Assembly (NCBI RefSeq): GCF_013623775.1
Contig: NZ_JABFAM010000008.1
Location: 62,001 to 126,000 of the forward strand
Reading direction: 5' to 3'
Length of the DNA stretch: 64,000 nt
Source: Rufibacter sp. XAAS-G3-1
GTDB lineage: Bacteria; Bacteroidota; Bacteroidia; Cytophagales; Hymenobacteraceae
This document shows positions 7,645-22,807 of the stretch, one piece after another. How positions within the stretch are numbered: position 1 is the stretch's first letter; every line of letters begins with the position of its first letter. The notes below the pieces were generated by a model. That model saw only the letters and a program-made list of their open reading frames with translations. It ran no database searches and was not told where the DNA came from. The translations under genes and the position numbers were made by a program.

Positions 7645-8958
7645 CTATGAATTAGATGCTATTTGCTCCACAATGGTCGCAAAATCAGGCCGGTTCTGAA
7701 CCTCTGGTTGCATACAATCCTGCTTTAATAGGAGAAGGTTTTGAGCCCGTTCCTGCGCCATGTCCTGAGGAGTGAGATGATCAAGCAACTCTTCCAGCAA
7801 ACACCCAAAGGCACGAACTTCCAACCGTTCCAAAGCAGAAGCTAAGGCCGTATTGTCCTGGTTATAGACCGTGGCAGCCCCAAAATCTCCAAAAAGCGGA
7901 TGACCAGTCGCATCTACCAAAGTGTTGTGCGCATAAAGGTCGCCGTGCGAAATGCCGCGGGCGTGCAAATGCGCTGCCGCGGAAGCAATGCCTGCCGAAA
8001 TGCTGATAGCTTCTTCCAGCGTGAATACCGTACCTTCGGCATAGACATCACGGGTGCAGGATTCAAAACTGGGCGAGCCTCCCAAGTTGCGGTATCCGGC
8101 CGGGATCAACCCTAACACCAAGCCTTGCTTCTGCGCGGGGTGCTGCGTGATTTTGCCTAGCACCTGCACCAGGTTGGGGTGCGCTCCGGCCCGCAGACAC
8201 GCCTGCATCTCATCTTCAGGCAACCCATCACTGGTTACTTCGCCTTTGAAAACTTTCACTGCCACCTGTTGGGTAGAATTTGCCTGGTTTTGCCAATGAG
8301 CCCGCGTAATGATACCAGATGCGCCTTCGCCCAATTGCTCCTCCAGCACCAAGTCTTGCCAAGGAATTTCGGATAATTCTGTAGCGGTGGGAACCGGTGG
8401 GTTGCAGGGATTCCCCGACATAGCCAGCCAGGAAAGGCGTGGAAGCGCGAGCAACCAATCTGGGAGATGGGTAATCTGGTTAGCCGATATCCTGAAAAGC
8501 TCCAGGTTCTGGCAGGAAGCCAACTCTGGGGTAAGGGATTTCAATTTGTTTCCGGCCAGCATCAGTTTTTGCATGCGGGCACACTTGCCAATAGAGGCTG
8601 GTAATTCGGCAATCTGGTTGTTGGTCAAAATAAGCCAACGGGTGGTGGGGGGAATTGCGTCTTCGGCTATGTGGCTAATCTTGCAGGCTTTGAACCCAAT
8701 CATTTCCAGGCGGGGAAGTTTGCCCAGCGCCTCGGGGAACACGGTGAAGTCATTGTCTGAGAAAAACGCGATGCGCAGGTGCTGCAGGCGGGTAAAGGCA
8801 TTGGGCAGGCAGGTCAGGTGGTTGCCGGAAAGGTCCAGGATCTCCAGGGTTTCGGCTAGGTCAAAAATCGCTGAGGGAACCTCGGTTAAACCGCAGGAAA
8901 GTTTTACTCTGGTGGCGCCTGCCAGTTCACCGGCCTGTAATTGTTCTAAGGTGTGCAT
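7645..8958 (-). CDS. Leucine-rich-repeat protein with C-terminal protein kinase domain
   Basis: Residues about 15-190 form some seven leucine-rich repeats (for example LEILDLSGNHLTCLPNAF, LILTNNQIAELPASI, LMLAGNKLKSL). From about 200 to the end is a eukaryotic-like kinase: glycine loop GEGASG (210-215), VAVKVF with lysine 235, catalytic loop HGDLYAHN (338-345) and DFGAA (358-362). The usual HRD is HGD, as in RD-negative kinases, but Asp340, Asn345 and the DFG Asp are all kept, so activity is plausible. There is no membrane segment. The LRR-kinase order recalls the LRR-ROCO-kinase family but no GTPase domain is present. Substrate and signal are unknown. It lies between GH15 and the divergent cysteine operon, with no obvious functional tie to either. 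Confidence 0.85.
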   Translation of the reverse strand: MHTLEQLQAGELAGATRVKLSCGLTEVPSAIFDLAETLEILDLSGNHLTCLPNAFTRLQHLRIAFFSDNDFTVFPEALGKLPRLEMIGFKACKISHIAEDAIPPTTRWLILTNNQIAELPASIGKCARMQKLMLAGNKLKSLTPELASCQNLELFRISANQITHLPDWLLALPRLSWLAMSGNPCNPPVPTATELSEIPWQDLVLEEQLGEGASGIITRAHWQNQANSTQQVAVKVFKGEVTSDGLPEDEMQACLRAGAHPNLVQVLGKITQHPAQKQGLVLGLIPAGYRNLGGSPSFESCTRDVYAEGTVFTLEEAISISAGIASAAAHLHARGISHGDLYAHNTLVDATGHPLFGDFGAATVYNQDNTALASALERLEVRAFGCLLEELLDHLTPQDMAQERAQNLLLLKQDCMQPEVQNRPDFATIVEQIASNS

Positions 8959-9277
8959 GAAAACAGAAGATATCCGGCTGTGAAGGTAGCCATTGCGGCG
9001 GTATGTATTTTATCTGCAAGGGCAGATTTATAGCCTTTTAATTATTTACAAGTAGGTACATATAAAGCTGCTTATAGGGAAACTTTTCAGGGAGGTGGAT
9101 TGGTTTTATTCATGAAGCAGGCGTTTTCGCGTTCCTTTAAGGAAATTAGCCTAAAAAAGAAACTCAGTAATTGAGATTGCGTTAATGCTTTAGATTGTTC
9201 GTTAGTAGATGCGTAACAATAGGCAGGGAAACCTGCTGATTTTTAATTGGTAAACTCTACTAAATTGATAGGGAAAC

Positions 9278-9307
9278 TTGATTTGTAAAATTCGGCCCCT
9301 ATCTTTG
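9278..9307 (+). promoter_or_regulatory. Promoter of the cysteine (sulfate assimilation) operon
   Basis: TTG at 9278-9280, 19 bases, then TATCTTTG at 9300-9307 match the Bacteroidota primary-sigma consensus (TTTG-N19-TAnnTTTG). Transcription would start near 9313, about 29 bases before the leader peptide ATG and about 174 bases before cysH. Confidence 0.7.
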
Positions 9308-9341
9308 CGTCATCTTTTAAAACAGCCAGATATCAGACTAC

Positions 9342-9410
9342 ATGGTCTATTCTTCTCACATAAAGCGAATGCGCTTCTGCTGTTGCAGCTCCTGCTGCTG
9401 TTGTTGCTAA
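9342..9410 (+). CDS. Probable cysteine-rich regulatory leader peptide
   Basis: An ATG at 9342 opens a 22-codon frame, MVYSSHIKRMRF followed by CCC-SS-CCCCC and TAA (9408-9410). Eight of the last ten codons are cysteine, and both TGC and TGT are used. The frame lies wholly in the 5' leader of the sulfate assimilation operon, in the cysH direction, and a promoter sits just upstream. Runs of the regulated amino acid in a short leader ORF are the hallmark of ribosome-mediated attenuation (as in trp, his and leu leaders), and polycysteine leader ORFs have been described in mycobacteria; I do not know a described case for this group of bacteria. It should sense charged tRNA-Cys. Translation is not proven. 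Confidence 0.7.
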   Translation: MVYSSHIKRMRFCCCSSCCCCC

Positions 9411-9424
9411 TCCTTAGCTTCAAC
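9400..9424 (+). promoter_or_regulatory. Hairpin overlapping the last cysteine codons and stop of the leader
   Basis: GTTG-TT-GCTAA, loop TCC, TTAGC-TT-CAAC: four plus five base pairs around a symmetric UU/UU internal loop. The 5' arm covers the last Cys codons and the TAA, so a ribosome at or near the end of the leader would keep it open. There is no U-run after it, so it is not a plain intrinsic terminator; it may control an alternative fold, ribosome access or Rho. Further down, GGCA (9444-9447) could pair either with TGCC at 9435 or with TGCC directly before the cysH ATG. Confidence 0.5.
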
Positions 9425-9486
9425 AAAATTCTATTGCCTATACGGCACCCTCTAATTCAATTCTTCTTACTTAGTACTTTCTTGCC

Positions 9487-10236
9487 ATGGCCTCTTCATC
9501 ACAAGAGCAGGTGTCTCAACTTATACAAGAGACAGAAGGCTTAACCATAGACCAGACTTTCGCGCTGCTGGTGAGCCGTTACCCCAGTGAGGTGACGTTC
9601 TCTTCCAGCTTCAGCTTTGAGGATCAGGTGATTTCCCACCAAATCCTGGAGAACCATTTCCCCATCAGTATCTTTACGTTAGATACCGGCCGCCTTTTTC
9701 CAGAGACCTATTCTGTGTGGAGCAGAACCAATGAGGCGTACAACACCCGCATCAAGGCGTACTACCCCAACAATGAGCAACTGGAGGATTTTGTGCACAA
9801 CACCGGCCCTAACTCCTTTTATGAGTCTCCCCAGAACCGCAAAGACTGCTGCCATATCAGAAAAGTAGAACCCTTGAAGCGGGCGCTGGCTGGTAACGCT
9901 GTCTGGATTACCGGCCTCCGGGCCGAGCACTCCCAGGGCCGCAGCGATTTGCCTAAGTTTGAGTGGGACGAAGGGAACCAACTCATCAAGTTTCACCCGC
10001 TGTTGTATTGGACTACCCAGGAAGTGATGGCGTTCATCAAGCAACACAATATCCCTTACAACAAACTACACGACAAAGGCTTCATCAGCATTGGCTGTGC
10101 CCCTTGTACCCGCGCCATCCAGCCGGGCGAAGATTTCCGGGCCGGCCGTTGGTGGTGGGAAGATGCCAGCAAAAAAGAGTGTGGCTTGCACGTATCTGAA
10201 TCGCCGGCTCCGGTTGCCCCGGAACTGGTTAAGTAG
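9487..10236 (+). CDS. cysH: Adenylylsulfate (APS/PAPS) reductase, iron-sulfur type
   Basis: Reduces activated sulfate to sulfite with thioredoxin. The 249-residue protein has the fold of the PAPS reductase family with the cysteine pairs C121-C122 (DCCHIRK) and C204/C207 (CAPC), which bind a [4Fe-4S] cluster in enzymes that accept APS directly. The catalytic C-terminal cysteine is C232 in ECGLH. Presence of the cluster cysteines, together with the lack of a cysC kinase domain in the locus, suggests APS rather than PAPS as the substrate. It is the first enzyme gene after the putative cysteine leader, and cysD follows 20 bases later. Confidence 0.95.
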   Translation: MASSSQEQVSQLIQETEGLTIDQTFALLVSRYPSEVTFSSSFSFEDQVISHQILENHFPISIFTLDTGRLFPETYSVWSRTNEAYNTRIKAYYPNNEQLEDFVHNTGPNSFYESPQNRKDCCHIRKVEPLKRALAGNAVWITGLRAEHSQGRSDLPKFEWDEGNQLIKFHPLLYWTTQEVMAFIKQHNIPYNKLHDKGFISIGCAPCTRAIQPGEDFRAGRWWWEDASKKECGLHVSESPAPVAPELVK

Positions 10237-10256
10237 AAAGAATAGACATAGTACCT

Positions 10257-11165
10257 ATGAGTTCATATAAATTAGATTACCTAGATCAGCTGGAATCAGA
10301 AGCGATCCACATCTTCAGAGAAGTAGCAGGGCAGTTTGAGCGTCCGGCTCTCTTATTTTCCGGTGGAAAAGACTCTATCGTGTTGGTGCATCTGGCGCTG
10401 AAAGCCTTTAGACCCGGCAAGTTTCCTTTCCCGCTGGTGCACATTGACACGGGCCATAACTTCCAGGAAGCCCTTGCCTTCAGAGATTACCTGGCCCATA
10501 AGATTGGCGAGAAGCTGATTGTGCGCCACGTGGAAGACACCATCAAAGCCAAAGGCCTCACCGAGCAGAAAGGCAAGTTGCCCAGCCGCAACGGGTTGCA
10601 GACCTACACCTTGCTGGATACCATTGAGGAGTTTGCCTTTGACGCCTGTATTGGCGGTGCCCGCCGGGACGAAGAGAAAGCCCGCGCCAAAGAGCGTATC
10701 TTCTCGGTGCGTGACGAGTTCGGCTCCTGGGATCCTAAGTTGCAGCGCCCAGAGTTGTGGAACACCTACAACGGCAAAATCAACAAAGGCGAAAACGTGC
10801 GCGTGTTCCCCATCAGCAACTGGACTGAGCTAGACATCTGGAACTACATCCGTCGCGAGAAAATCGAACTACCCTCCATCTATTTCGCCCATGAGCGCGA
10901 GGTGCTGGAGTTTGAAGGCCGCCTGGTAGCCACCAACGAGTTTGTGCAACTGCACGACGACGACGTGATTGCCCGCAAGGTAGTCCGTTACCGCACCGTG
11001 GGCGACATGACCTGTACCGCCGCCGTTGAGTCCAGAGCCTCTACCCTGGATGACATCATCAACGAAATCATTGCCACCAACACCAGCGAACGCGGCCAGA
11101 CCCGCATTGACGACCGCGCCTCTGAAGCTGCCATGGAAGACCGCAAGAAAAATGGGTACTTCTAG
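10257..11165 (+). CDS. cysD: Sulfate adenylyltransferase subunit 2
   Basis: The small, catalytic subunit of ATP sulfurylase, which makes APS from ATP and sulfate. The 302-residue protein has the PP-loop SGGKDS at 35-40, the family stretch IDTGHNFQEALAFRD, GGARRDEEKARAKER and the ending EDRKKNGYF. Length and ending are those of full-length CysD. It starts 20 bases after cysH and works as a complex with CysN, whose gene is 314 bases downstream beyond a long inverted repeat. Confidence 0.96.
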   Translation: MSSYKLDYLDQLESEAIHIFREVAGQFERPALLFSGGKDSIVLVHLALKAFRPGKFPFPLVHIDTGHNFQEALAFRDYLAHKIGEKLIVRHVEDTIKAKGLTEQKGKLPSRNGLQTYTLLDTIEEFAFDACIGGARRDEEKARAKERIFSVRDEFGSWDPKLQRPELWNTYNGKINKGENVRVFPISNWTELDIWNYIRREKIELPSIYFAHEREVLEFEGRLVATNEFVQLHDDDVIARKVVRYRTVGDMTCTAAVESRASTLDDIINEIIATNTSERGQTRIDDRASEAAMEDRKKNGYF

Positions 11166-11166
11166 G

Positions 11167-11300
11167 ACCTCACCCCCAGCCCCTCTCCCACGGAGAGGGG
11201 AGCCCCGCAGATGCGTTTTCGGCCTGTTCTGCGGAAAAGGGCTGAAAACGGTAAAGTAGAATTCCCCCTCTCCGTGGGAGAGGGGGCCAGGGGGTGAGGT
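11167..11300. repeat. Nested inverted repeat between cysD and cysN
   Basis: Outer arms ACCTCACCCCCAGCCCCTCT (from 11167) and its near-complement ending GGGGTGAGGT at 11300 begin two bases after the cysD stop. A GTTTT-type palindrome (11213-11250) sits at the centre. Another GTTTT palindrome follows at 11402-11438, and heptad-like ACTCAAG/ACTCAGA repeats at 11440-11475. The rest of the 314-base gap shows no gene. Confidence 0.75.
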
Positions 11301-11479
11301 GTTCATGCAAACTAGGAAGGCAGCAGCCAAACAGTAAAAAAAGAATTTCGGCGCAGCCGATACATGAAATATAGAAGAAATGGAGGCCCGTGCTTAAAAG
11401 CTGTTTTTAGCTTGTTTTCAAGAAAACAGCCCTAAAACAAACTCATGACTCAGCACTCAAGACTCAGAACTCATTTAAA

Positions 11480-12757
11480 ATGGATATTTTAAGATTTTTA
11501 ACCGCCGGGAGCGTAGACGATGGCAAAAGCACGTTGATTGGACGTTTGTTGTATGACAGCAAATCCATCATGGTAGACCAGCTGGAAGCCATGGAACGGA
11601 GCACCAAGAACCGCGAAGAAGGTCAGGTGGATTTGGCTTTGTTGACCGACGGTTTACGCGCAGAGCGGGAGCAGGGCATCACCATTGACGTGGCCTACAA
11701 ATACTTCTCTACGCCTAAGCGCAAATTCATCATCGCAGATACGCCGGGCCACATCCAGTACACCCGCAACATGGTGACGGGTGCGTCTAACTCAGACCTG
11801 GCCATTATCTTGATTGATGCCCGCCATGGGGTGGTGGAGCAAACCCGCCGTCACTCCATCATTGTGTCGTTGCTGAACCTGCCGCACGTGGTGGTCGCCA
11901 TCAACAAGATGGATTTGGTGAAGTACTCAGAAGAAATCTACAACAACATTGTGATTGACTACTCACAGGTGGCTAAATCTCTGGGTTTGAAAAATGTGAC
12001 CTACATTCCCATCAGTGCGCTCAACGGCGACAACATTGTGGAGAAAGCCCAGACCATGCCGTGGTTCGAAGGCGAATCGCTGTTAGGTTTGCTGGAAACG
12101 GTGGAGGTACACGAAGACATCAACCTCACCCAGGGCCGTTTCCCGGTGCAGTACGTCATCCGTCCCCAGACCGAGGAATTGCCTGATTACCGTGGGTACG
12201 CCGGTAAAATCATCAGTGGCATTTACCGCAAAGGCGACAAAGTGGTGGTGCAGCCCTCGGGCGTAGAGAGCACCATTTCAGCCGTGGAAGTAGGCGGCGA
12301 GGAAGTGGAAGAGGCCTTCGCGCCGCAGAGCGCGGTGTTGCACCTGCAAGACGATGTGGACATCAGCCGCGGTGACATGCTTGTGAAGCAGGACGCCCCG
12401 GTGCAGGTGGCCCAGGAATTTGAAGTGGTCTTGTGCTGGATGAGCAGCACGCCGCTGGCGCCCCGTAACCGCTACCTGCTCCAGATCAACAGCCGCAACG
12501 TACGCTGCGTGGTGAAAGAACTGCACTACAAACTGAACGTGAACACTCTGGAAAAAGAACTATCCCCGGTGTCGGCTGGTTTGAATGATGTGGTGAAAGC
12601 GGTCATCAAAACCGCGTCGCCTATTGCGTTTGATTCCTACAAAAAACTGAGGGCCAACGGCGGGGCCATCTTAATTGATGAAACCAGCAACGTGACCGTA
12701 GGCGCGTGTATGATCACCACCGAACCCCAGGAGAAGCCTTTCTGGCCTGAAATCTGA
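11480..12757 (+). CDS. cysN: Sulfate adenylyltransferase subunit 1 (GTPase)
   Basis: The regulatory GTPase subunit that couples GTP hydrolysis to APS formation by CysD. The 425-residue protein is EF-Tu-like: P-loop GSVDDGKST (10-18), DTPGH near 90 and NKMD near 142, followed by the two beta-barrel domains. It ends at TEPQEKPFWPEI, with no fused CysC (APS kinase) domain, and no cysC is present in the locus. This fits direct reduction of APS by the upstream iron-sulfur CysH. Confidence 0.95.
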   Translation: MDILRFLTAGSVDDGKSTLIGRLLYDSKSIMVDQLEAMERSTKNREEGQVDLALLTDGLRAEREQGITIDVAYKYFSTPKRKFIIADTPGHIQYTRNMVTGASNSDLAIILIDARHGVVEQTRRHSIIVSLLNLPHVVVAINKMDLVKYSEEIYNNIVIDYSQVAKSLGLKNVTYIPISALNGDNIVEKAQTMPWFEGESLLGLLETVEVHEDINLTQGRFPVQYVIRPQTEELPDYRGYAGKIISGIYRKGDKVVVQPSGVESTISAVEVGGEEVEEAFAPQSAVLHLQDDVDISRGDMLVKQDAPVQVAQEFEVVLCWMSSTPLAPRNRYLLQINSRNVRCVVKELHYKLNVNTLEKELSPVSAGLNDVVKAVIKTASPIAFDSYKKLRANGGAILIDETSNVTVGACMITTEPQEKPFWPEI

Positions 12758-12762
12758 GAAAG

Positions 12763-12964
12763 ACCTCACCCCAACCCCTCTCTGCGGGAGAGGGGTTGGT
12801 GGAATTGGTTCTTCCTGCCTATATAGCGTTTTGGGCCCTTTTTCCCGAAAGTAGAAGGAAAACGCTGCTCGGCTAAAGTTTGTGAAAGCTCTTGGCAAGC
12901 GATAAAAGTAATTAGCAACTTAAACAAAAAGCCCCTCTCTGCGGGAGAGGGGTTGGGGTGAGGT
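12763..12964. repeat. Nested inverted repeat between cysN and the methyltransferase gene
   Basis: Perfect 19-base outer arms, ACCTCACCCCAACCCCTCT (12763-12781) and its complement (12946-12964), the second ending only three bases before the next ATG. The arms also contain small hairpins (CCTCTCTGCGGGAGAGG). A GTTTT-type palindrome lies inside at 12828-12867. In mRNA this fold would close next to the start codon. Confidence 0.8.
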
Positions 12965-12967
12965 CTT

Positions 12968-13780
12968 ATGCCACAGAAAGGAAAAGTGATCATAGCAGGC
13001 GCCGGCCCCGGCGATCCTGATTTGATCACCGTGAAGACGGTAAAAGCGTTGCGGCAGGCCGAGGTAATTCTGGTAGACCGCTTGGTAAGTGCCGAAATCC
13101 TGCAAAGCTATGCGGCGCCATCGGCGGAGATCGTGTACGTGGGCAAACAATGCCGCAGCCATGGTACCACGCCGCAGGCCACCATCAATGAACTGTTGGT
13201 GGAATATGCCCTGTTGGGAAAACAAGTACTGCGGTTGAAAGGCGGCGATGTTTCCATCTTCTCCAACGTACTGGATGAGCTGCAAAGCCTGGTAGCGCAC
13301 GGGATTGAGTATGAAATCATACCGGGCATTACGGCAGCGTTGGGAGCGGCGGCGTACGCAGGCATTCCGCTCACGGCGCGGCAGCATTCTACCGCCGTAC
13401 GCTTCTTGACTTACTACACCTACAGCAAGCTTACTGAGGAATACTGGCAAGAGTTAGCCCAAACCGAAGACACGCTGGTGTTTTACATGTCCAGTGAGCG
13501 GCTGGCCGAGGTGGTGGAAAAGCTCACGCGCCACGGCATCTCAGAAGAGAAACAACTGGCGGTAGTGGAGCAGGCTACCACGCCCTTGCAGCACGTGCAA
13601 ACCAGCAGCCTGTATGCCTATGAAAAGAACCTGGGTGGAAAGGCGTTTGTATCGCCCTCGCTCGTGATCATAGGCAAAGTGGTGAGCCTGCACCAGGAAT
13701 TCAAGTGGTTCACCAACAACCCAAGTAGAGAACATTACTTCAAGCCGGTCTCTGAACAGATGGGTTTGGTACTTCAATAA
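12968..13780 (+). CDS. cobA: Uroporphyrinogen-III C-methyltransferase (SUMT)
   Basis: Adds two methyl groups from S-adenosylmethionine to uroporphyrinogen III to give precorrin-2, the first step to siroheme, the cofactor of sulfite reductase. The 270-residue protein has the SUMT signatures GAGPGDPDLITVKT (11-24), LRLKGGDVSIF and EIIPGITAALGAAAYAGIPLT. It is the methyltransferase half only; the oxidation and chelation step is supplied by the fused gene at the end of the operon. cysJ starts 10 bases after its stop. Confidence 0.93.
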   Translation: MPQKGKVIIAGAGPGDPDLITVKTVKALRQAEVILVDRLVSAEILQSYAAPSAEIVYVGKQCRSHGTTPQATINELLVEYALLGKQVLRLKGGDVSIFSNVLDELQSLVAHGIEYEIIPGITAALGAAAYAGIPLTARQHSTAVRFLTYYTYSKLTEEYWQELAQTEDTLVFYMSSERLAEVVEKLTRHGISEEKQLAVVEQATTPLQHVQTSSLYAYEKNLGGKAFVSPSLVIIGKVVSLHQEFKWFTNNPSREHYFKPVSEQMGLVLQ

Positions 13781-13790
13781 TATCAATATT

Positions 13791-15506
13791 ATGTTAGCAG
13801 AAGCTAAATTAAAGGCCTTGCAAGAACTGGTGAATCAGTCCTCCAAAGATGAATTGATTTGGATGAGCGGTTATTTGTCGGGGCTTATTTCATCACAGGG
13901 CGTAATGGCCTCGGCTCCCGCGGCGGGTGCAGTGGCCGAAGCCCCGAAACCTGCCGTGGGCCGAATCACGATTACCTACGGTACTGAGACTGGTAACTCC
14001 AAGCGCGTAGCCACAGATCTGGCAAGCAAAGCCAAGAAATCTGGTATCAACGCCAAGGTGGTCAGCCTAGACCAATACCGCCTGAACGACCTGGAAAAGG
14101 AGGAATACTTCTTAACCGTCATCAGCACGCAGGGCGAGGGAGATCCGCCCGCCGGGGCCCAGAAGTTCTACGACTACGTGCACCAAACCGATAAAAAGCT
14201 GCCTAAACTGAAGTACAGCGTGCTGGCTTTGGGTGACACGGCCTACCCGCTGTTCTGCAAAGCCGGCGAAGACGTTGATACTCAACTGCAACGCTTAGGC
14301 GGCAGCCCCTTGGTGCCCATCCAGAAGTGCGACGTGGATTACGAAGATGAAGCCAATGCCTGGTTCCAGAGCGTATTGCAGACGTTGAACCAGACGGCCA
14401 CTCCAGCTTCGGCCCCGGCCGCCGCACCGGCTCCCGTCAAAAAAGCGGGCAAGAAAATCTACAACGGCACCATTCTCACCAATATCATCCTGAACGATGT
14501 GGGCTCCAACAAACTCACGCACCACATTGAGATGGAGGCCGAGGATTTAGCCTACGAGCCCGGCGATGCCTTGGGCGTGGTTCCAAAGAACCGGCCGTTT
14601 ACCATTGAGGCCATCCTGAAAGTCACCGGTATTTCGCCGGACGAAAAAGTGACGCACCGCAACAGTGAATCTACCGTACGCGAGCTGCTGCACGACAAAC
14701 TGAACATCACGTTCCTGCCAGAGCGCGTAGTAAAGAAATACGCCGAGGTAGTGGAACAAGACATTCCGGCTACCCGCATTGACCTGTTGGATTTGCTTAG
14801 AATTTACCCGGTAAAGGACACCGAGCAGTTCAAAGAAGTACTGCAAATTCTGGAACCAATCGCGCCCAGACTATATTCCATCTCTTCCTCGTTGGAGGCG
14901 CACTCCGGTGAAATTCACGTGACGGTGGCTCGCGACGAGTTCAGAATCAACGAGGAGTTGCTGTGCGGCCATTGCTCAGATTACCTGTCAGAGCAGAAAG
15001 AAGGCCAACCATTGGAATTCTACATCCACAAGAACAGTCAGTTCAAGTTGCCGGCCGCAGAGAAAGACGTAATCATGATCGGGCCGGGCACCGGCGTGGC
15101 CCCGTTCCGTTCGTTTTTGGCCGAGCGCGATGCCACCGGGGCCGAGGGCCGCAACTGGCTTTTCTTCGGCGACCAGCATTTCGCAACGGATTTCTTGTAC
15201 CAGACCGAAATCCAGAACTGGTACGAGACCGGTACCCTCACCAAATTCAACGCCGCCTTCTCCCGCGACCAGCAAGAGAAAGTATACGTGCAGCACAAGA
15301 TGCTGGAAAACGCGACAGAGTTCTACCAGTGGCTTACTTCGGGCGCGTACGTGTACGTGTGCGGGGCCAAAGACCCCATGAGCGTAGACGTAGAAAACAC
15401 CCTGTTGCAAATCATCGGGCTAGGTGCCGGTTCTTCCCCCGAGGAAGCCGCCGTGTACCTGGAGCAAATGAAAGAAGAAGGCCGCTACCTGAAAGACGTG
15501 TATTAA
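13791..15506 (+). CDS. cysJ: Sulfite reductase (NADPH) flavoprotein alpha-component
   Basis: Carries electrons from NADPH through FAD and FMN to the sulfite-reducing hemoprotein. The 571-residue protein has an N-terminal helical stretch, an alanine/proline linker, a flavodoxin domain from about 60 (ITYGTETGNSKRVA, STQGEGDPPAGA), a second Ala/Pro linker near 205-220, an FAD-binding domain (RLYSISSS) and the NADPH domain (GPGTGVAPFRSFLAERD). It ends with the typical YLKDVY. Its partner cysI follows 332 bases later, after another inverted repeat. Confidence 0.95.
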   Translation: MLAEAKLKALQELVNQSSKDELIWMSGYLSGLISSQGVMASAPAAGAVAEAPKPAVGRITITYGTETGNSKRVATDLASKAKKSGINAKVVSLDQYRLNDLEKEEYFLTVISTQGEGDPPAGAQKFYDYVHQTDKKLPKLKYSVLALGDTAYPLFCKAGEDVDTQLQRLGGSPLVPIQKCDVDYEDEANAWFQSVLQTLNQTATPASAPAAAPAPVKKAGKKIYNGTILTNIILNDVGSNKLTHHIEMEAEDLAYEPGDALGVVPKNRPFTIEAILKVTGISPDEKVTHRNSESTVRELLHDKLNITFLPERVVKKYAEVVEQDIPATRIDLLDLLRIYPVKDTEQFKEVLQILEPIAPRLYSISSSLEAHSGEIHVTVARDEFRINEELLCGHCSDYLSEQKEGQPLEFYIHKNSQFKLPAAEKDVIMIGPGTGVAPFRSFLAERDATGAEGRNWLFFGDQHFATDFLYQTEIQNWYETGTLTKFNAAFSRDQQEKVYVQHKMLENATEFYQWLTSGAYVYVCGAKDPMSVDVENTLLQIIGLGAGSSPEEAAVYLEQMKEEGRYLKDVY

Positions 15507-15585
15507 AGCACATGCTGTACATGCTTCAAGGTTGAGACTTGGAGCAACCATGGCGCAAGTTTGCAACTTGCGAAAACACGCGTTT

Positions 15586-15782
15586 CGTCCCCCTTTGAGG
15601 GGGTAGGGGGATGACAAAGGCGCTGGAAGAACTCCAAAGCAGTTGTTTCATAGCAACGGATAATGATCTCGGGGAACGCCATGATCAGCACGCGTAATCA
15701 TCCCCCTACCCTCTTCAAAGGGGGACGAAGAAGTAGTTCATAATTGTGGTTTTAGGCCTGTTTTCCTGAAAACAGACCTAAA
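15586..15782. repeat. Inverted repeat and GTTTT palindrome between cysJ and cysI
   Basis: Arms CGTCCCCCTTTGAGGGGGTA (from 15586) and its near-complement ending at 15727 enclose about 85 bases of unique DNA, followed by a GTTTT-type palindrome (TTTTAGGCCTGTTTTCCTGA, 15748-15782). A small palindrome CGCAAGT/ACTTGCG lies just before at about 15554-15573. No gene is seen in the 332-base gap. Confidence 0.7.
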
Positions 15783-15838
15783 GCAGAAAATCAGAACTCA
15801 ACAGGGGCAATCCTGTTCCACCATAAACACCAGTTACC

Positions 15839-17518
15839 ATGTCAACTGAGAAAAAGAACTTATCTCCTATAGAGAAAATAAAAGAGATCAGCCAAGGCTT
15901 GCGCGGCACGCTGAAGGAGAGCCTGAAAGACGAAATCACCGGGGCAATCCGGGAAGATGATACGGCGCTGGTGAAGTTCCACGGCATGTACATGCAGGAC
16001 GACCGCGACCGGCGCGAGGAACGGGCCAGCAAGAAACTGGAGCGTCTATACTCCTTCATGATCCGGTTGCGGTTGCCCGGCGGTTTCCTGACCCCAGAGC
16101 AGTACATTGCCACGCACAACATTGCGGGCGAGAATTCTACGGGCGTGATCAAAATCACCACGCGGCAGACCTTGCAGTTGCACGGCATTGTGAAGTCAAA
16201 AACCAAACCCACCATCAAAGCCTTCAACCAGGTGGGGCTTGATTCTATTGCTGCCTGCGGCGATGTGAACCGGAACGTGGTGGCCAGTGCGAACCCCCTG
16301 GAGTCGCCGCTGCACGAAAGAATCTACCAGTACGCCGACCGCATCAGTGAGTACCTGTTGCCTAAAACCAGATCTTACTATGACGTTTGGCTGGATGAGG
16401 AGAAAATCTACGACAAGGTAGAGGAGGAAGACCCGTTGTACCAAGACCGGTACCTGCCCCGCAAGTTCAAGATTGGCCTGGTGATACCGCCTAACAATGA
16501 TTCAGACGTGTTCGCCCAGGATCTGGGGCTAATTGCCATCATTGAGAACAATGAACTGCAAGGCTTCAACTTTGCCGTTGGCGGTGGGCTGTCCTTTACC
16601 CACGGCAACGCAGAAACTTATCCGCGGCTGGCTACGGAGATCGGGTTTGTGAGCACCCAGGAATCTGACGAGAAGCTGTTCAAAGCCGTGTATGAGGTGT
16701 TGACCGTGCAACGCGATTTCGGGAACCGGGCAGACCGTAAATTGGCCCGCCTCAAATACACCGTAGATAACATGGGGCCAGACGTGTTTCGCCAGGAGGT
16801 AGAGAAACGCACCGGTTTCGCCTTGGAGGCGGCACGTCCGTATGAATTGAAGACCCGTATTGACCACTATGGCTGGGCGCAGAGTTACAATGGCCTGCAC
16901 CATTACACGGTGTTCGTAGAAAACGGCCGCATCACAGACCTAGACAACGTGGCCCTGAAAACCGCTATGTTGGAGGTTGCCCAGACCGGCAAAGCCAACT
17001 TCCGGTTTACCTGTAACCAGAACGTGATCCTGAGCGACATCACCGCCGAAGACAGAGCCGAAATTGAGCAGATTTTGGTAAAACACCAGGTAATCCCGCA
17101 CACCCAGGCGGCTTCCCCGGTGCGTAAAAACGCGATGGCCTGCGTGGCGCTGCCAACCTGCCCGCTGGCCTTAGCCGAAGCCCAACGGTATATGCCGGAA
17201 TTGATCACCAAGATTGACGGAGTACTGGCGAACCACGGCTTGCAAGAGGAGGAAATCATCATCAGAATGACCGGCTGCCCTAACGGTTGCGGCCGCTCGG
17301 TTCTCTCTGAAATCGGGTTTGTGGGTACCGCCCCGGGCCGTTACAACCTGAACCTGGGTGGTGATGAGCAAGGCCAGCGCCTGAACAAACTCTACAAAGA
17401 AAACCTGGACGAAGCCGAGATTCTACAAGAGCTTGACACCGCTTTCGCGTCTTTCAAGCAAAACCGAGTAGCAGGTGAGCGTTTTGGAGATTTCGCGTAC
17501 CGCACGTTATTGAATTAG
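15839..17518 (+). CDS. cysI: Sulfite reductase (NADPH) hemoprotein beta-component
   Basis: Reduces sulfite to sulfide with six electrons, using siroheme coupled to a [4Fe-4S] cluster. The 559-residue protein has the two duplicated sulfite/nitrite reductase halves. The cluster/siroheme cysteines are in CVALPTC (near residue 436) and GCPNGCGRS (near 478). Arginines typical of the sulfite site occur in TTRQTLQLHG. Length is close to that of enterobacterial CysI. Position after cysJ makes sulfite rather than nitrite the substrate. Confidence 0.95.
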   Translation: MSTEKKNLSPIEKIKEISQGLRGTLKESLKDEITGAIREDDTALVKFHGMYMQDDRDRREERASKKLERLYSFMIRLRLPGGFLTPEQYIATHNIAGENSTGVIKITTRQTLQLHGIVKSKTKPTIKAFNQVGLDSIAACGDVNRNVVASANPLESPLHERIYQYADRISEYLLPKTRSYYDVWLDEEKIYDKVEEEDPLYQDRYLPRKFKIGLVIPPNNDSDVFAQDLGLIAIIENNELQGFNFAVGGGLSFTHGNAETYPRLATEIGFVSTQESDEKLFKAVYEVLTVQRDFGNRADRKLARLKYTVDNMGPDVFRQEVEKRTGFALEAARPYELKTRIDHYGWAQSYNGLHHYTVFVENGRITDLDNVALKTAMLEVAQTGKANFRFTCNQNVILSDITAEDRAEIEQILVKHQVIPHTQAASPVRKNAMACVALPTCPLALAEAQRYMPELITKIDGVLANHGLQEEEIIIRMTGCPNGCGRSVLSEIGFVGTAPGRYNLNLGGDEQGQRLNKLYKENLDEAEILQELDTAFASFKQNRVAGERFGDFAYRTLLN

Positions 17519-17526
17519 TAAATAAC

Positions 17527-17600
17527 CGTTTCAAGGCTGTTTTCTGTAAAACAGCCCCGAAACGTAAACCTGTGAGGTTTCTAAAACCTCACAGGTTTAA
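17527..17600. repeat. GTTTT palindrome plus ACCTGTGAGGT palindrome after cysI
   Basis: CGTTTCAAGGCTGTTTT...AAAACAGCCCCGAAACG (17527-17564) starts 9 bases after the cysI stop, and AAACCTGTGAGGTTT-ctaa-AACCTCACAGGTTT follows at 17566-17598. This is the same two-part unit as at 437-512. Confidence 0.75.
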
Positions 17601-17700
17601 AAAAACATAAGCCTGAGTTAGGAGACTTGTGCCTATGGATGAGATTACAACTAAGGCATCTATGGCGCGGAAGTAAGAAATAATTATGTATCCATTCTCC

Positions 17701-17790
17701 TTGTCCTCCTGAAAGGATCTCGGTGGCGAACGGCAAGGGCGTTTATGACAGATTTTCCAGTCCGCCCACAAGATCCTTTCAGGAGGACAA
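17701..17790. repeat. 90 bp element with perfect 20-base inverted ends
   Basis: TTGTCCTCCTGAAAGGATCT at 17701-17720 is exactly mirrored at 17771-17790, with 50 bases between. It lies in the gap before the siroheme synthase/permease gene. It could be a MITE-like insertion or a regulatory hairpin; no second copy was found in this window. The remaining gap shows no gene. Confidence 0.7.
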
Positions 17791-17986
17791 AATAGATAGC
17801 CTCATTTGTCCCGCTACTTAATTTCGGGGTATAAATGTTTTTCAAGGATCTAACAGATGAACACTCCCCATGCTTCTGTTAGACAGATTCGGCTACCCCG
17901 AAGAAGTACGCACCACAGCCCAGGAACATTTGATTAGGTCTTCCCCTGAGTTTCCATCGTTCATACTACCACCACCACCACCATTT

Positions 17987-19492
17987 ATGACCACTACCAC
18001 TACTAAAGAGCAAAATGAATTGTTTCCGGTTTTTCTGAAGCTGGAGCATTTGTGCGTGTTGGTAGTTGGGGGAGGCAACGTGGGCCTGGAGAAACTGACG
18101 GCTTTGCTGCAGAATTCCCCCAGAACCACCATCAAAGTAGTGGCTATCCAATTCAATGAGGCGGTGCTGCAGTTAGCCCAGGAAAACCACAACATTGCCT
18201 TAATCCCTAAAGCCTTCAGTGCGGAAGATGTGGCCGGGGCCGATCTTGTGATTGTTGCCGTGAACGACCGTGAAGCTAGCCGAGCCATCAGCCTGGAAGC
18301 CAAACGCCAGGGCAAACTGGTGAACGTCGCCGACACCCCCGATCTCTGCGATTTTTACCTGAGTTCCGTTGTCCGGAAAGGCAACCTCAAAATCGCGATC
18401 TCCACCAACGGCAAATCGCCCACCATGGCCAAGCGCCTGAAAGAGACGTTCAATGAAACCCTGCCTGAGGAATTGGATCAGGTGCTGGACAACCTGCAGC
18501 AAATCAGGAACCGCCTGAAAGGGGATTTCGCGGCCAAGGTGACCCAACTCAATGACATTACCAAAGTGATGGCGGCCAAGCCCGGCAAGCCGAAACAAAG
18601 CATAGCCAATGGCCCCAAAAAGTTAGTGGCGCTGGGCGTTGTACTCGCTCTTGTCTTTACGCTGCTGGGTTTTGTACTTTCCTCTTTTGTGCCGGTGCAG
18701 GAGGCCGTAGGGCAAGCGGTTCACCTTTCCCAAAGCCTAGACCCGCTTTTCTACTGGATGATTGTGGCCGGTTTTGCCGCCCAGATGGTAGACGGGGCAC
18801 TGGGCATGGGCTACGGCGTTACCTGTACCACCATTCTAATGTCATTGGGGGTGAACCTGCCCGCCATCAGCGGCAGCATCCATACCGCCGAGGTGTTCTC
18901 CAGCGGGGCTTCGGGGTACAACCACTACAAGGTAGGGAACGTGAACAGGAAGCTCTTCAAAGTATTACTGATTCCGGGGGTAATAGGAGCGGTGCTGGGC
19001 GCCTATCTGCTGTCGGTGGTGGGGGAGGAGTACGCGGGGTATGTGCGGCCTATTCTGGCTTGTTACACGCTTATTCTGGGGGGGAGAATCCTTTACACCG
19101 CCTTCCGGAAGAACAAAGAGCGGAAGAAGATTAAAAAAGCGGGTTGGCTGGCCGGGGCCGGCGGTTTCCTGGATTCTTTTGGCGGCGGCGGTTGGGGGCC
19201 GCTAGTGACCAGTACGCTAATTTCCAAAGGCCGCACCCCGCGGTTTGTGATCGGTTCCGTCAGTATCACCGAGTTCTTTGTGGCCCTGGCCAGTTCCATC
19301 ACGTTCTTCGCCATGCTGGGCATGAGTCACCTGCACATCATTCTGGGGCTGATTGTAGGCGGCCTGATGGCGGCCCCTATAGCGGCCCGTCTGGCCGGGC
19401 GGCTGCCCATGAAAACCATGTTCATTGCCGTAGGTTCGCTGGTCATCATTTGGAGCCTCCGGATTCTGCTGAAGGCGGTAGGGGTGTTTTAA
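17987..19492 (+). CDS. Siroheme synthase (precorrin-2 dehydrogenase/ferrochelatase) fused to TSUP (TauE/SafE) permease
   Basis: Residues about 10-200 form a CysG-N/Met8p-like domain (LCVLVVGGGNVGLEKL, NVADTPDLCDFYLSSVV, STNGKSPTMAKRLKE) that oxidises precorrin-2 and inserts iron to make siroheme. From about 215 to 501 follows a hydrophobic TSUP permease with the duplicated signature MVDGALGMGYGVTCTT and GGFLDSFGGGGWGPLVTS; such proteins move sulfite, sulfate or organosulfonates. So one polypeptide joins cofactor supply for CysI with likely transport of its substrate. The frame is open back to an ATG at 17870, which would add 39 residues ending in SFILPPPPPF; ATG at 17987 fits the start of the conserved domain better, but the longer form cannot be excluded. 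It is the last gene of the sulfate operon. Confidence 0.88.
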   Translation: MTTTTTKEQNELFPVFLKLEHLCVLVVGGGNVGLEKLTALLQNSPRTTIKVVAIQFNEAVLQLAQENHNIALIPKAFSAEDVAGADLVIVAVNDREASRAISLEAKRQGKLVNVADTPDLCDFYLSSVVRKGNLKIAISTNGKSPTMAKRLKETFNETLPEELDQVLDNLQQIRNRLKGDFAAKVTQLNDITKVMAAKPGKPKQSIANGPKKLVALGVVLALVFTLLGFVLSSFVPVQEAVGQAVHLSQSLDPLFYWMIVAGFAAQMVDGALGMGYGVTCTTILMSLGVNLPAISGSIHTAEVFSSGASGYNHYKVGNVNRKLFKVLLIPGVIGAVLGAYLLSVVGEEYAGYVRPILACYTLILGGRILYTAFRKNKERKKIKKAGWLAGAGGFLDSFGGGGWGPLVTSTLISKGRTPRFVIGSVSITEFFVALASSITFFAMLGMSHLHIILGLIVGGLMAAPIAARLAGRLPMKTMFIAVGSLVIIWSLRILLKAVGVF

Positions 19493-19552: not shown

Positions 19553-19699
19553 CGTAGGGACAGGTCGCGACCTGTCCAAGGGCGCTGGCGAAGAAAGCTG
19601 CCGCCGCTATGAAAAAATGCAGCATGCAACACTATTGATTAGGAGAAAAGGTATTGGTAGCTGGAACCGGATTAGGGCAGGTAGCGACCTGTCCCTACG
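19553..19699. repeat. Inverted repeat overlapping the end of metX
   Basis: CGTAGGGACAGGTCGC (19553-19568) is mirrored by GCGACCTGTCCCTACG (19684-19699). The right arm contains the metX stop codon (19695-19697), so the repeat supplies the end of that gene. The left arm carries its own small palindrome GGACAGGTCGCGACCTGTCC. A similar GTAGAGACAAGG/CCTTGTCTC palindrome is at about 26230-26260. A GTTTT-type palindrome lies at about 19491-19522, at the stop of the permease fusion. Confidence 0.65.
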
Positions 19700-20750
19700 C
19701 CGTTAAAAAGGCACCAGATACCGGATTGGCTTTCACTACCTCTGCGAGCCAAGCAGCGTAGTGCTGCGAAATTTTCTGCCCTTCAATAATGAACCCGTCA
19801 TGGCCATAGTCTGAGTCGATTTCCACGTAAGTGGCGTTAGGCAGATGCTGCGCCAGAAATTGCTGCTCCTGCACCGGACAAAGAATATCGCTGCTGATGC
19901 CAATGATCAACGTTTTTTGCGGTATTTTCTGTAAAACAGGCTCTAAACAGCCACCTCGGCCACGGGCCAGATGGTGGCTGTCCAGCGCTTTGGTCAGAAA
20001 CCAGTAACTGTACGCGTTGAAACGGGCCACCAGTTTGTCGCCCTGGTATTCTAAGTAAGAAGACACGCGGTAATTGTCCAGCTTCTCGGGATCAGGGTCG
20101 GTTTGGTTCTGGGCCAGGATTTGGTAATTGCGGTAGGTGAGCGTGCCCAGGGCGCGGGCGGCTTTGAGGCCTTTGCTGCCGGCGGTGGGGCTTGGTTCGC
20201 CCCAGGTGCCATCTGCCTCCAGCATGAGGCGCTGCGTGGTGTGGATACCGATGCTCCAGGTGCTTTCGGCCGCCGAGGTGGCCAATAGAAACAGGTTTTC
20301 CACTACCTCCGGTTCGGCAATAGCCCATTCCAATACTTGGAAACCTCCCATGCTGCCTCCGGCCAAGATATGAATTTTCTCCAGCCCCAGATGCTCGCGC
20401 AGCAGCGTGTGTGCCTTCACCATGTCCCGGATGGTGACCTGTGGGAAAGTTGTATAATAAGATTCCTGGGTCTCAGGGTTAATACTTAGAGGGCCGGTGC
20501 TGCCGTAGCAGGAGCCCAGAATGTTGGCGCAGACAATAAAATGTTGTTCAGGATCAATGACCTTACTTTCCCCTACTATACCGTCCCACCAGTCCAACAC
20601 GTTAGAATTAGCGGTAAGAGCATGGCAAATCCAGACCACATTGCTTTTATTTGCGTTGAGGGTACCAAAGGTGTGGTAGGCAACGGTGATTTCTGGAAGT
20701 ATTTGCCCCCCTTCTAATTCAAAAGGTTGGGTGTATTGAAAATAATTCAT
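19695..20750 (-). CDS. metX: Homoserine O-acetyltransferase
   Basis: Activates homoserine for methionine synthesis by acylation (acetyl-CoA in most family members; some use succinyl-CoA). The 351-residue alpha/beta-hydrolase has the nucleophile elbow GGSMGG (Ser133), LGSCYGSTGP and, near the end, ISSDILCPVQEQ and DYGHDGF with the catalytic Asp and His. It faces the end of the sulfate operon and, together with the sulfhydrylase at 21638, leads from homoserine and sulfide to homocysteine. The ATG at 20750 sits 56 bases from the divergent OsmC gene. Confidence 0.93.
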   Translation of the reverse strand: MNYFQYTQPFELEGGQILPEITVAYHTFGTLNANKSNVVWICHALTANSNVLDWWDGIVGESKVIDPEQHFIVCANILGSCYGSTGPLSINPETQESYYTTFPQVTIRDMVKAHTLLREHLGLEKIHILAGGSMGGFQVLEWAIAEPEVVENLFLLATSAAESTWSIGIHTTQRLMLEADGTWGEPSPTAGSKGLKAARALGTLTYRNYQILAQNQTDPDPEKLDNYRVSSYLEYQGDKLVARFNAYSYWFLTKALDSHHLARGRGGCLEPVLQKIPQKTLIIGISSDILCPVQEQQFLAQHLPNATYVEIDSDYGHDGFIIEGQKISQHYAAWLAEVVKANPVSGAFLTA

Positions 20751-21229: not shown

Positions 21230-21637
21230 CTACGTCCTGAGTTTTTAGTTCTGAGTCCTGAGTTGGGAAAATGAAACCCACCCCTAGCCCTTCCCAAGAG
21301 GGGAATTCCTATGAAGGGTTTATAGGCTATCTTTGGGAAATCAGGCTGAAAACAGGAATGTATTCAGACCTCACAGGTTTCCAAAACCTGTGAGGTCTCC
21401 CTAAGGCCGCTCATCCCAAAGACCTCGTAGCGTCTTTAGGCCTGCGAGCGTCTGCGCCAGTAGCTTCTGAACTGCGTGCCCCGCAGGTGTGAACATCCCC
21501 CTCCGCCCCTGCAGAGGGGAAGTATCTTCTAGCGTAGAAAAGGGAAGCTAGAGTAGCAAAAAAAGCACCAAATAGTTGGCGCTGAGGTGATCCCTAAAAG
21601 AGCACATGAGCACATCAAAAAATTAGCACATTACAAA
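21230..21637. other. Intergenic region with palindromes before the sulfhydrylase gene
   Basis: No gene or known riboswitch was recognised. It holds ACTCAGGA/TCCTGAG-type heptads after the OsmC stop, a GTTTT-like hairpin (21318-21350) and an AGACCTCACAGGTTT/AAACCTGTGAGGTCT palindrome (21366-21398). A G/C-rich inverted stretch lies near 21500-21525, and GAGCACATGAGCACAT-type repeats lie directly before the start codon. Confidence 0.5.
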
Positions 21638-22807
21638 ATGGACTACCATCCGCTTACCAAGGCCATAAGAATACAGACAGCGCGCACCAATGAGATGGAG
21701 CACGCCACGCCCATGTTCCTGACCAGCAGTTTCCAGTTTGAGAACGCCGAGGACATGCGCGCCGCCTTCGCCGATGAGACCGATGACAACATCTACAGCC
21801 GGTTCAGCAACCCCACGGTGCAGGAGTTTACTGATAAGATGTGTGCCCTGGAAGGTGCCGAGGCCGGATACGCAACCGCCTCGGGGATGAGTGCGGTGTT
21901 CGCCTCCTTTATGGCTTTGCTGAAAGCGGGAGACCATTTGCTGGCCTGTAACTCCATCTTCGGGAGTACGCACACCATCATTACCAAGTACCTGCCCAAG
22001 TACGGCATTGAGTACAGCTACGTTAGCGCAGACAAGCCCGAGGAGTGGGAAGCGGCCATCAGGCCCAATACCAAGATGTTCTACCTTGAAACGCCCACCA
22101 ACCCGGGGCTGGACATCATTGACCTGGAAGCGGCGGGTAAACTCACCAAGCAGCACAACATCATCTTCAACGTAGACAACTGCTTCGCCACGCCCGTAAA
22201 CCAGCTCCCCATCCAGTACGGCGCAGACCTTATCGTACACTCGGCCACCAAGTGGATTGACGGGCAAGGGCGCGTGTTGGGCGGGGTAGTGGTAGGCAAA
22301 AAAGAACTGATCAAAGACATTTACCTGTTCTGCCGCAGCTCAGGCCCCGCTTTATCGCCGTTCAATGCCTGGGTGCTGAGCAAAAGCCTGGAGACGCTGG
22401 ATGTACGCATGGAGCGCCACGCCGCCAATGCCCTTTCCATCGCCACCAAACTGCAAGACCACCCCAAACTCTCCTGGGTGAAGTACCCGTTCCTGCCCTC
22501 GCACAAAAGCTATGAAATAGCCAGAAAGCAGATGAAAAACGGTGGCGGTCTTTTCTGTTTTGAACTGAAAGGCGGTCTGGAAAGCGGACGCAAATTCCTG
22601 GACAGCCTGCAACTCATGTCGCTCACCGCCAATCTGGGAGACACCCGCAGCATCGCCTCGCACCCCGCCAGCACCACCCACGCCAAGCTCACCGAAGCAG
22701 AACGGCAAGCCGTCAGCATCACGCCCGGCTTAATCAGAATCTCCGTGGGGCTAGAGTACGCTGATGATATCCTGAGCGATATCTTACAGGCGCTAGAGAA
22801 GTGCTAG
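21638..22807 (+). CDS. metZ: O-succinyl/acetylhomoserine sulfhydrylase (trans-sulfuration PLP enzyme)
   Basis: A 389-residue Cys/Met-metabolism PLP enzyme. Motifs include YSRFSNPTVQEF, ASGMSAVFASF, ETPTNPGLDIIDL, FNVDNCFATP and HSATKWIDGQGRVLGG with the PLP-binding lysine. The wording around these motifs, especially the WIDGQGR stretch, is that of the MetZ-type enzymes that combine acyl-homoserine with sulfide to make homocysteine. The frame is open upstream to 21587, but ATG 21638 gives the usual N-terminus (MDYHPLTKAIRIQTARTNEM). The nearby metX makes the substrate and the upstream operon makes the sulfide. The exact acyl donor is not certain. Confidence 0.88.
   Translation: MDYHPLTKAIRIQTARTNEMEHATPMFLTSSFQFENAEDMRAAFADETDDNIYSRFSNPTVQEFTDKMCALEGAEAGYATASGMSAVFASFMALLKAGDHLLACNSIFGSTHTIITKYLPKYGIEYSYVSADKPEEWEAAIRPNTKMFYLETPTNPGLDIIDLEAAGKLTKQHNIIFNVDNCFATPVNQLPIQYGADLIVHSATKWIDGQGRVLGGVVVGKKELIKDIYLFCRSSGPALSPFNAWVLSKSLETLDVRMERHAANALSIATKLQDHPKLSWVKYPFLPSHKSYEIARKQMKNGGGLFCFELKGGLESGRKFLDSLQLMSLTANLGDTRSIASHPASTTHAKLTEAERQAVSITPGLIRISVGLEYADDILSDILQALEKC

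Follow-up and report, generated by a model that had tools for sequence, protein, structure and literature searches.

In the tna leader of Escherichia coli, the state of a ribosome on a short open reading frame (ORF) decides Rho termination downstream, and what is sensed is free tryptophan; the Rufibacter leader described here would instead sense charged tRNA through its codons. Polycysteine leaderless short ORFs of mycobacteria are reportedly the subject of Canestrari et al. 2020. Excerpts of three further papers describe such ORFs as leaderless, placed 5' of cysteine-related genes and working as a cysteine-responsive attenuator (PMC9031893, PMC9094748, PMC13236596), in agreement with an earlier note on this DNA that had called polycysteine leader ORFs known in mycobacteria. 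Cysteine leader peptides were also predicted in Actinobacteria in 2005, where the available portion of the paper proposes Rho and names the tna operon leader as its precedent (PMC1262725). A third case is uORFC-8-2 before cysS in Rhodobacterales, presented in extracts of PMC8632094 as an upstream ORF (uORF) with Cys codons for which ribosome-mediated attenuation was proposed; its Cys codons form a tandem pair, as a rule at positions 14 and 15, and it has a terminal U-run. For Bacteroidota we found no described cysteine leader in the open-licence literature, as the note had also stated. Two transcriptome papers hint, in the sections available, at unnamed leader-peptide-like attenuators in Flavobacterium psychrophilum (PMC9723704) and at unnamed leader-peptide-like elements in Bacteroides thetaiotaomicron (PMC7366714), with cysteine named in neither of these sections.

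Our locus is in Rufibacter sp. XAAS-G3-1, within a window of 64,000 nucleotides, by which we mean the whole stretch of DNA that was analysed. Direct reading confirms the proposed 22-codon ORF with a terminal Cys run, MVYSSHIKRMRFCCCSSCCCCC followed by a stop, in which eight Cys fall within the last ten codons and after which the ATG of cysH comes 76 nt past the stop (Table 1). The second in-frame ATG could be the ORF start instead of the first. We think it likely that the sulfate-assimilation operon is preceded, at positions 9278-9486, by a leader that responds to cysteine, with the ribosome serving as the sensor of Cys-tRNA, and very likely that the sign of the response would be a rise in operon expression when cysteine is short. 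The Rufibacter leader is real and functional-looking; it belongs to a known kind of regulator, and it is the phylum and the architecture that are new.

The comparison with the described systems is as follows. At the sequence level the locus has the conserved short ORF, rich in codons for the pathway product, of a leader-peptide attenuator, and it shares with the mycobacterial ORFs, as far as the excerpts describe them, a Cys run near the stop and a place 5' of a cysteine/sulfur operon. The mycobacterial ORFs are leaderless in those excerpts, whereas the Rufibacter ORF, judged from its promoter, has a short 5' leader, for which base-pairing with the Cys codons is predicted; it also has a predicted hairpin over the stop codon and comes from a different phylum. 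The available portion of PMC1262725 reports no conserved terminator hairpins for the Actinobacteria, unlike the conserved predicted fold found here, again in a different phylum. Relative to uORFC-8-2 as extracted, the Rufibacter leader has eight C-terminal Cys codons, no U-run, and cysH rather than cysS after it, so that neither the tandem Cys before cysS nor the terminal U-run of that family is found.

Table 1. Positions of the leader features and of the genes that follow, in window coordinates.
Feature	Position	Strand	Basis and details
Conserved motif TCTACTAAATTGATAGGGAAA, candidate transcription-factor operator	9256..9276	+	adjoins promoter on its 5' side
Putative promoter TTG-N19-TATCTTTG	9278..9307	+	TTG 9278-9280, 19 nt, TATCTTTG 9300-9307
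Helix 1: 5' element AACAG-C-CAGA (consensus AACAG-N-CAGA), pairs with 9376-9384 over the first Cys codons	9321..9330	+	predicted
Helix 2: hairpin around the uORF start codon, first ATG at loop	9335..9348	+	predicted; 95.7% of cells paired
Leader ORF MVYSSHIKRMRFCCCSSCCCCC, then stop	9342..9410	+	ATG 9342, stop TAA 9408-9410
Helix 3: small hairpin, second ATG at loop	9364..9375	+	predicted; 98.2% of cells paired, 3/4 pairs never vary
Alternative in-frame start ATG (codon 10), giving MRFCCCSSCCCCC, then stop	9369	+	sequence
Cysteine-codon block	9378..9407	+	Cys at codons 13-15 and 18-22; Ser at codons 16-17
Helix 4: hairpin GCAGC-TCCT-GCTGC, then TGTTGTTG	9385..9398	+	predicted; terminator-like flag
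Helices 5-6: stop-codon hairpin, 5' arm with last three Cys codons and stop	9399..9425	+	predicted
C-rich, G-poor spacer, candidate Rho-loading region	9426..9486	+	base composition
Helix 7: small spacer hairpin	9435-9447	+	predicted; 87.5% of cells paired
cysH, APS/PAPS reductase, first operon gene	9487..10236	+	NCBIfam NF002537 and TIGR02055 above cut-off
cysD, cysN, uroporphyrinogen-III methyltransferase, cysJ, cysI, siroheme-synthase N-domain fusion	10257..19492	+	NCBIfam, ORFs

A short ORF of this kind might be due to chance, to a low-complexity (CTG)n stretch, or to an RNA element with an accidental Cys reading. The codons of the block do form a TGC/TGT-rich stretch, described earlier as CTG-rich and of low complexity, and other (TGT)n tracts are present in the genome. 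However, no ten codons in any of the six frames of the window hold more than eight Cys, and in 100 first-order Markov simulations of it the highest number was six (0/100 reached eight), which bears out the view of the earlier note that such a density is not expected by chance. Cys was also the outlying residue among ORFs that close with a run of a single amino acid before 94 non-Rufibacter cysH loci, a set from which L031 was left out because it was judged a duplicate of L006 (Rufibacter, same peptide, both contigs of 13,456 bases). Eight of these ORFs ended in Cys (0.05 expected, none on the reverse strand), compared with five in Leu (1.25 expected, reverse strand 4), two in Ala (0.1, reverse 0), two in Ile (0.55, reverse 2) and one in Lys (0.55, reverse 0); the reverse strand also gave one terminal run each of Gln and Ser. 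The enrichment of Cys is well over that of Ala or Leu, the leaders found elsewhere have mainly the Cys run in common, and no frameshift occurs among the 14 Rufibacter sequences. We give this explanation hardly any credence.

A CysH match turned up in 40 of the 59 related genomes searched and in 14 of the 16 from the same genus. All 14 Rufibacter cysH loci, including that of the window, have the leader ORF in the same length and frame, its stop lying 73-82 nt before cysH, so that the expectation of a Cys-rich short ORF kept without frameshift in relatives was borne out across the genus. The two genomes without a CysH match had no leader; only TGT-repeat tracts fitted the Cys-block pattern in them, and the longer pattern was unmatched. 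Among the 14 sequences codons 1-9 are variable (156/819 pairwise amino-acid differences), codons 10-12 never vary, and the amino acids RMRFCCC are invariant. The last Cys codon is still Cys in 10/14 and the fourth in 13/14 (Gly in one), and the other Cys codons are always Cys. Synonymous differences, counted over pairs that are not independent, number 13/669 in the leader Cys codons versus 164/455 in the Cys codons of cysH, with 6282/18751 for all synonymous cysH codons and 112/572 for the first nine uORF codons. The near freezing of the Cys codons at synonymous positions implies that the RNA is constrained as well as the peptide code, and from these alignments both look to be under constraint.

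This bears on the possibility that the product is a functional small Cys-rich peptide, acting in trans through metal or thiol chemistry and merely located before cysH. Its high Cys content would suit such a role, as would the invariance of RMRFCCC in Rufibacter and the return of MR[FLM]C in the metY and PhyH leaders described below. On the other hand, synonymous sites are frozen, the peptides of different families differ outside the Cys run and MR[FLM]C, and they recur directly 5' of different Cys genes. We consider a peptide working in trans very unlikely and prefer the reading of the ORF as a cysteine-sensing leader.

The sequence TTG-N19-TATCTTTG, read ahead of the ORF as the earlier note had it, is what we take to be a putative promoter of the Bacteroidota type. 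It ends 34 nt before the first ATG in the window, and TTG-N19-TAnnTTTG is found 31-40 nt 5' of the uORF ATG in 14/14 Rufibacter leaders, which argues against a leaderless ORF.

The leader RNA from 9313 to 9486 is predicted to fold at -39 kcal/mol, versus -26.5 for shuffles (z = -3.80). A consensus fold made with RNAalifold on the 14 Rufibacter sequences gave the helices of Table 1. In helix 1, 100% of cells are paired in the 14 sequences; six of the nine pairs never vary and there are three one-sided G-U changes. The consensus has a hairpin over codons 15-19, and helix 4 is invariant in the 14 sequences and is therefore neither supported nor contradicted by variation. A nine-pair hairpin at 9400-9424, covering the last Cys codons and the stop, had been proposed; a hairpin is indeed predicted there, although it is slightly longer, with ten pairs (9399-9403/9421-9425 and 9406-9410/9414-9418). 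It is predicted in all 14 Rufibacter sequences, with the stop wholly in the stem in six and partly in eight, and one of its pairs is changed on both sides in three sequences. A terminator scan confirmed that no U-run comes after it. Over the whole consensus 97.1% of cells pair versus 26-63% with the partners slid, a test that is generous to any structure built from the sequences on which it is scored. The observed percentage paired was reached by 12/500 shuffles and the covariation score by 21/500; covariation itself is weak, with one pair changed on both sides, a number reached by 385/500 shuffles. What the alignment shows is conservation of the predicted fold, not proof of it by covariation. 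Against the Rfam 15 covariance models, 8000-11000 gave a single hit, to a miRNA at 9019-9072, which is at chance level and falls far short of the gathering score.

The step from ribosome position to operon output is where our preference is most tentative: Rho-dependent termination is the option we lean to, translational control seems rather doubtful, and some other means more doubtful again. The 77 nt before cysH contain 7.8% G and 28.6% C, and the C/G ratio of the spacer exceeds that of each of 21 control regions, which lie upstream of the window's uncurated ATG ORFs of at least 250 codons. The composition of the spacer is compatible with Rho but no more than that, and we treat the spacer as a candidate Rho site. 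In none of the 14 Rufibacter spacers was an intrinsic terminator found, in a scan that ran from 95 nt before cysH, so that helix 4 lay outside it, and that had no shuffled control. When a ribosome was placed at Cys1, Cys2, Cys4 or the stop in the 14 modelled RNA ensembles, there was no consistent change in the accessibility of the cysH start, and masking of the cysH start codon was set aside as unsupported by these models. Taken together, the lack of an intrinsic spacer terminator and of modelled start masking, with the C-rich, G-poor spacer, weakly favours Rho attenuation.

The start region of cysH, TTTCTTGCCATGG, is strongly conserved, and this, the distance of 73-82 nt from the uORF stop in all 14 loci and the failure to find an intrinsic terminator in the spacer would all fit translational attenuation or reinitiation, in which the stalled or terminating ribosome alters cysH translation without early transcript ends. 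The mycobacterial polycysteine cases are likewise described, in excerpts, as acting on translation (PMC9031893, PMC13236596). However, the modelled accessibility of the cysH start does not shift consistently under ribosome masking, and strong terminators are seen in other leaders. Among the 29 non-Rufibacter leaders scanned (no shuffled control), hairpins with T tracts lie between leader and gene in L147 (-17.7 kcal/mol) and in the doubtful L110 (-23.1 kcal/mol), whose Cys block is not at the ORF end and which failed the strict rule given below; weaker candidates are present in L016, L020, L136, L071 and L140. The strong intrinsic terminator of L147 is what would be expected of transcription attenuation there. 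A purely translational output thus seems unlikely to us, if less so than the other alternatives weighed in this section.

Termination might also be intrinsic and lie within the leader itself, with helix 4 and the adjoining TGTTGTTG ending transcription unless a ribosome covers them. This hairpin is invariant in the 14 sequences and was flagged as terminator-like, one of three such sites in 9200-9520 on both strands versus 0.1 expected. Nevertheless its stem has five pairs, its T tract is interrupted by a G, and it sits inside the ORF, ahead of the end of the Cys run. We attach little likelihood to it.

With Rho as the tentatively preferred output, the leader would work in the following way, translation of the ORF and stalling on it being inferred from the sequence. 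Transcription would start shortly after 9307 and a ribosome would translate the short ORF up to the last ten codons with their eight Cys. If Cys-tRNA is plentiful, the ribosome would reach the stop, open the stop-codon hairpin and depart, exposing the C-rich, G-poor RNA beyond, and the exposed spacer would keep cysH and the genes after it low, most likely via Rho. If Cys-tRNA is scarce, the ribosome would stall on the Cys run and open the 5' pairing of helix 1; the stop-codon hairpin would then be left intact beside the spacer, with read-through into the operon.

Outside Rufibacter the leader before cysH was sought with a strict rule (ATG start, at most 60 codons, at least five Cys in 12, cysH no more than 400 nt away). 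It was found in 14/14 Rufibacter loci, 4/16 relatives and 6/78 named loci (7/79 with the Rufibacter locus L031), a count that excludes L077, where cysH is at the contig start. The reverse strand gave 0, 0 and 0 in these three groups, and the Markov means were 0.0, 0.04 and 0.12. Eight further distant CysH loci gave 0/8, so that 38 of 41 CysH places were scanned (30 plus the eight distant ones). Looser inspection adds L024-L026, which have GTG starts, and weaker cases such as L019, L021, L032 and L110. The earlier expectation of a Cys-rich ORF at cysH in related genomes therefore held throughout the genus and only here and there further away; distant cysH loci are mostly without a leader, which indicates that it is lineage-restricted there. 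Near cysH in Flavobacterium we also observed a short reverse-strand frame ending in a sequence like SCxC[IV]xC[CSG][IV]N (L090, L099, L105, L107, L108). These ORFs, ending in SYSCCCIRCCIN-like sequences, and L109 were not counted as leaders, since no gene stands in a leader-like position within their stretches.

Cys-run leaders were also looked for before other genes. A search of 395 genomes of the phylum found five Cys codons followed by TAA or TAG at 41 places, in 34 genomes; a reversed control gave 28 matches (counted by eye), which means that most hits to the bare pattern can be put down to chance. By rule 14 of the 41 places are leader-like, and eight of these 14, a fraction obtained without a control set, precede Cys/sulfur genes: two cysS, two cysH (one being that of the window), metY, SUMT (after L147), a sulfate-binding protein gene (after L154) and a serine acetyltransferase gene, the last (after L156) above the cut-off for the EpsC model and below that for cysE. 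The other six stand before genes without an evident Cys role, namely four for a PhyH-type dioxygenase, one for an ATP-grasp protein and one for a short protein. metY was identified after the leader by reading at L071, and through BLAST at L139 and at a further 14 Hymenobacter-like loci. The cysS leaders are L134, L135 and L211, all of family f23, the CysS of L134 being named by its likeness to that of L135. In a survey of 30 cysS loci out of 176 matches, 27 were readable and one of these had a leader (L211), while three gave no motif hit; no Cys-run leader was found at the cysS of the window's own genome. A general cysS leader was thus rejected on one of 27 readable loci, to which the phylum pattern search adds L134 and L135.

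That Cys runs stand before genes for the synthesis, uptake or charging of cysteine speaks for ribosomal sensing of Cys-tRNA, and their presence before other Cys/sulfur genes in other families lends support, from sequence comparison, to the earlier suggestion that charged tRNA-Cys may be sensed here. We tentatively suggest, and would not put the chances quite as high as evens, that Bacteroidota hold a dispersed cysteine-codon regulon. In it Cys-run leaders, evolved repeatedly or patchily retained, would sense Cys-tRNA before cysH, metY and cysS, before genes for serine acetyltransferase and sulfate uptake, and before a few genes where none was expected (PhyH-type dioxygenase, ATP-grasp protein). 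The output would differ between lineages, being of Rho type in Rufibacter and the Hymenobacter-like genus, where a stop-codon hairpin lies beside a pyrimidine-rich stretch that is a candidate Rho site, and intrinsic termination in the others. If true, this would give Bacteroidota a cis-acting cysteine sensor for sulfate assimilation and several other cysteine genes, and leader-bearing genes without an obvious cysteine role could be assigned to a cysteine regulon. It would also be a tractable case of leader-peptide control, with a stop-codon hairpin beside a candidate Rho site, in a group in which Shine-Dalgarno sequences are rarely used.

A pattern built on the Rufibacter core had no control match and hits in 35 of 204 genomes of the family: 13 Rufibacter, 21 of one Hymenobacter-like genus (name inferred) and one of another genus; the fourteenth Rufibacter, G012, is missed owing to its Gly. 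The single match outside these two genera (G581, MRFCCCCICC and stop) has no sulfur gene after it. All 21 Hymenobacter-like leaders end in Cys-rich runs (CCS in L190), and in 15 of the 21 loci metY comes directly after the leader (BLAST). These metY leaders resemble the Rufibacter layout in having a Cys run, a stop in a predicted stem and a pyrimidine-rich stretch. In the 20 that were aligned (L199 left out) the stop codon is wholly or partly in the predicted stem in 20/20, and the consensus has four pairs changed on both sides and is followed by the pyrimidine-rich stretch. In the other six loci (L185, L193, L194, L195, L198, L201) a peroxiredoxin-like gene, named by reading, lies between the Cys leader and metY, which comes after it in five of the six, L195 being the exception within its stretch. 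This arrangement suggests that a thiol peroxidase is part of the cysteine-controlled unit in those six loci.

Leaders L143-L146 end in MRMCCCCCC and a stop, with 51-53 nt from stop to gene. They stand before a gene for a PhyH-type dioxygenase, identified through Pfam at L143, and one that reads as CDP-alcohol-phosphatidyltransferase-like. At L140, in a Hymenobacter-like genome, an ATP-grasp (RimK-like) gene follows the Cys-run leader, and its product is possibly a thiol-related ligase.

The operon behind the Rufibacter leader had been described as a seven-gene route to sulfide starting with cysH. Seven genes do follow, with gaps of up to about 350 nt in this putative operon, and CysH (92% identical to that of R. 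ruber), CysD, CysN, uroporphyrinogen-III methyltransferase and CysI reach their NCBIfam cut-offs; the description has to be qualified for CysJ, a best match that stays below its cut-off, and for the seventh gene, a fusion whose N-terminus reaches the siroheme-synthase domain cut-off and whose C-terminus reads as TauE-like. Beyond the operon lie metX (19695-20750, minus strand) and a Cys/Met-metabolism PLP enzyme (21587-22807, plus strand), both named from their sequences. Two of the operon gaps, 11163-11300 and 12760-12968, contain palindromic CCCCTCTCC..GGAGAGGGG repeats, long inverted repeats that we assume to be REP/MITE-like.

The motif TCTACTAAATTGATAGGGAAA next to the promoter may be an operator at which a regulator of sulfur genes binds, perhaps one of Rrf2/CymR type. 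Its close form CTACT-AA-NN-TGATAGG-N-AAA is present in 9/14 Rufibacter loci by an exact expression, with variants in others (L009, for example). At up to three mismatches it has one match in the window versus 0.04 expected; at up to two it has one match in its own genome, and the reversed control likewise has one. Strings like TCTACTAATTCGATAGA or TAGACTAAT were seen by eye near leaders L143-L146 and L037, L038, L042 and L063. Further 5' of the promoter, at 9222-9237, is a hairpin, GGCAGGGAAACCTGC, then a T run, terminator-like on both strands, which by eye seems to be retained with changes in some of six readable Rufibacter rows.
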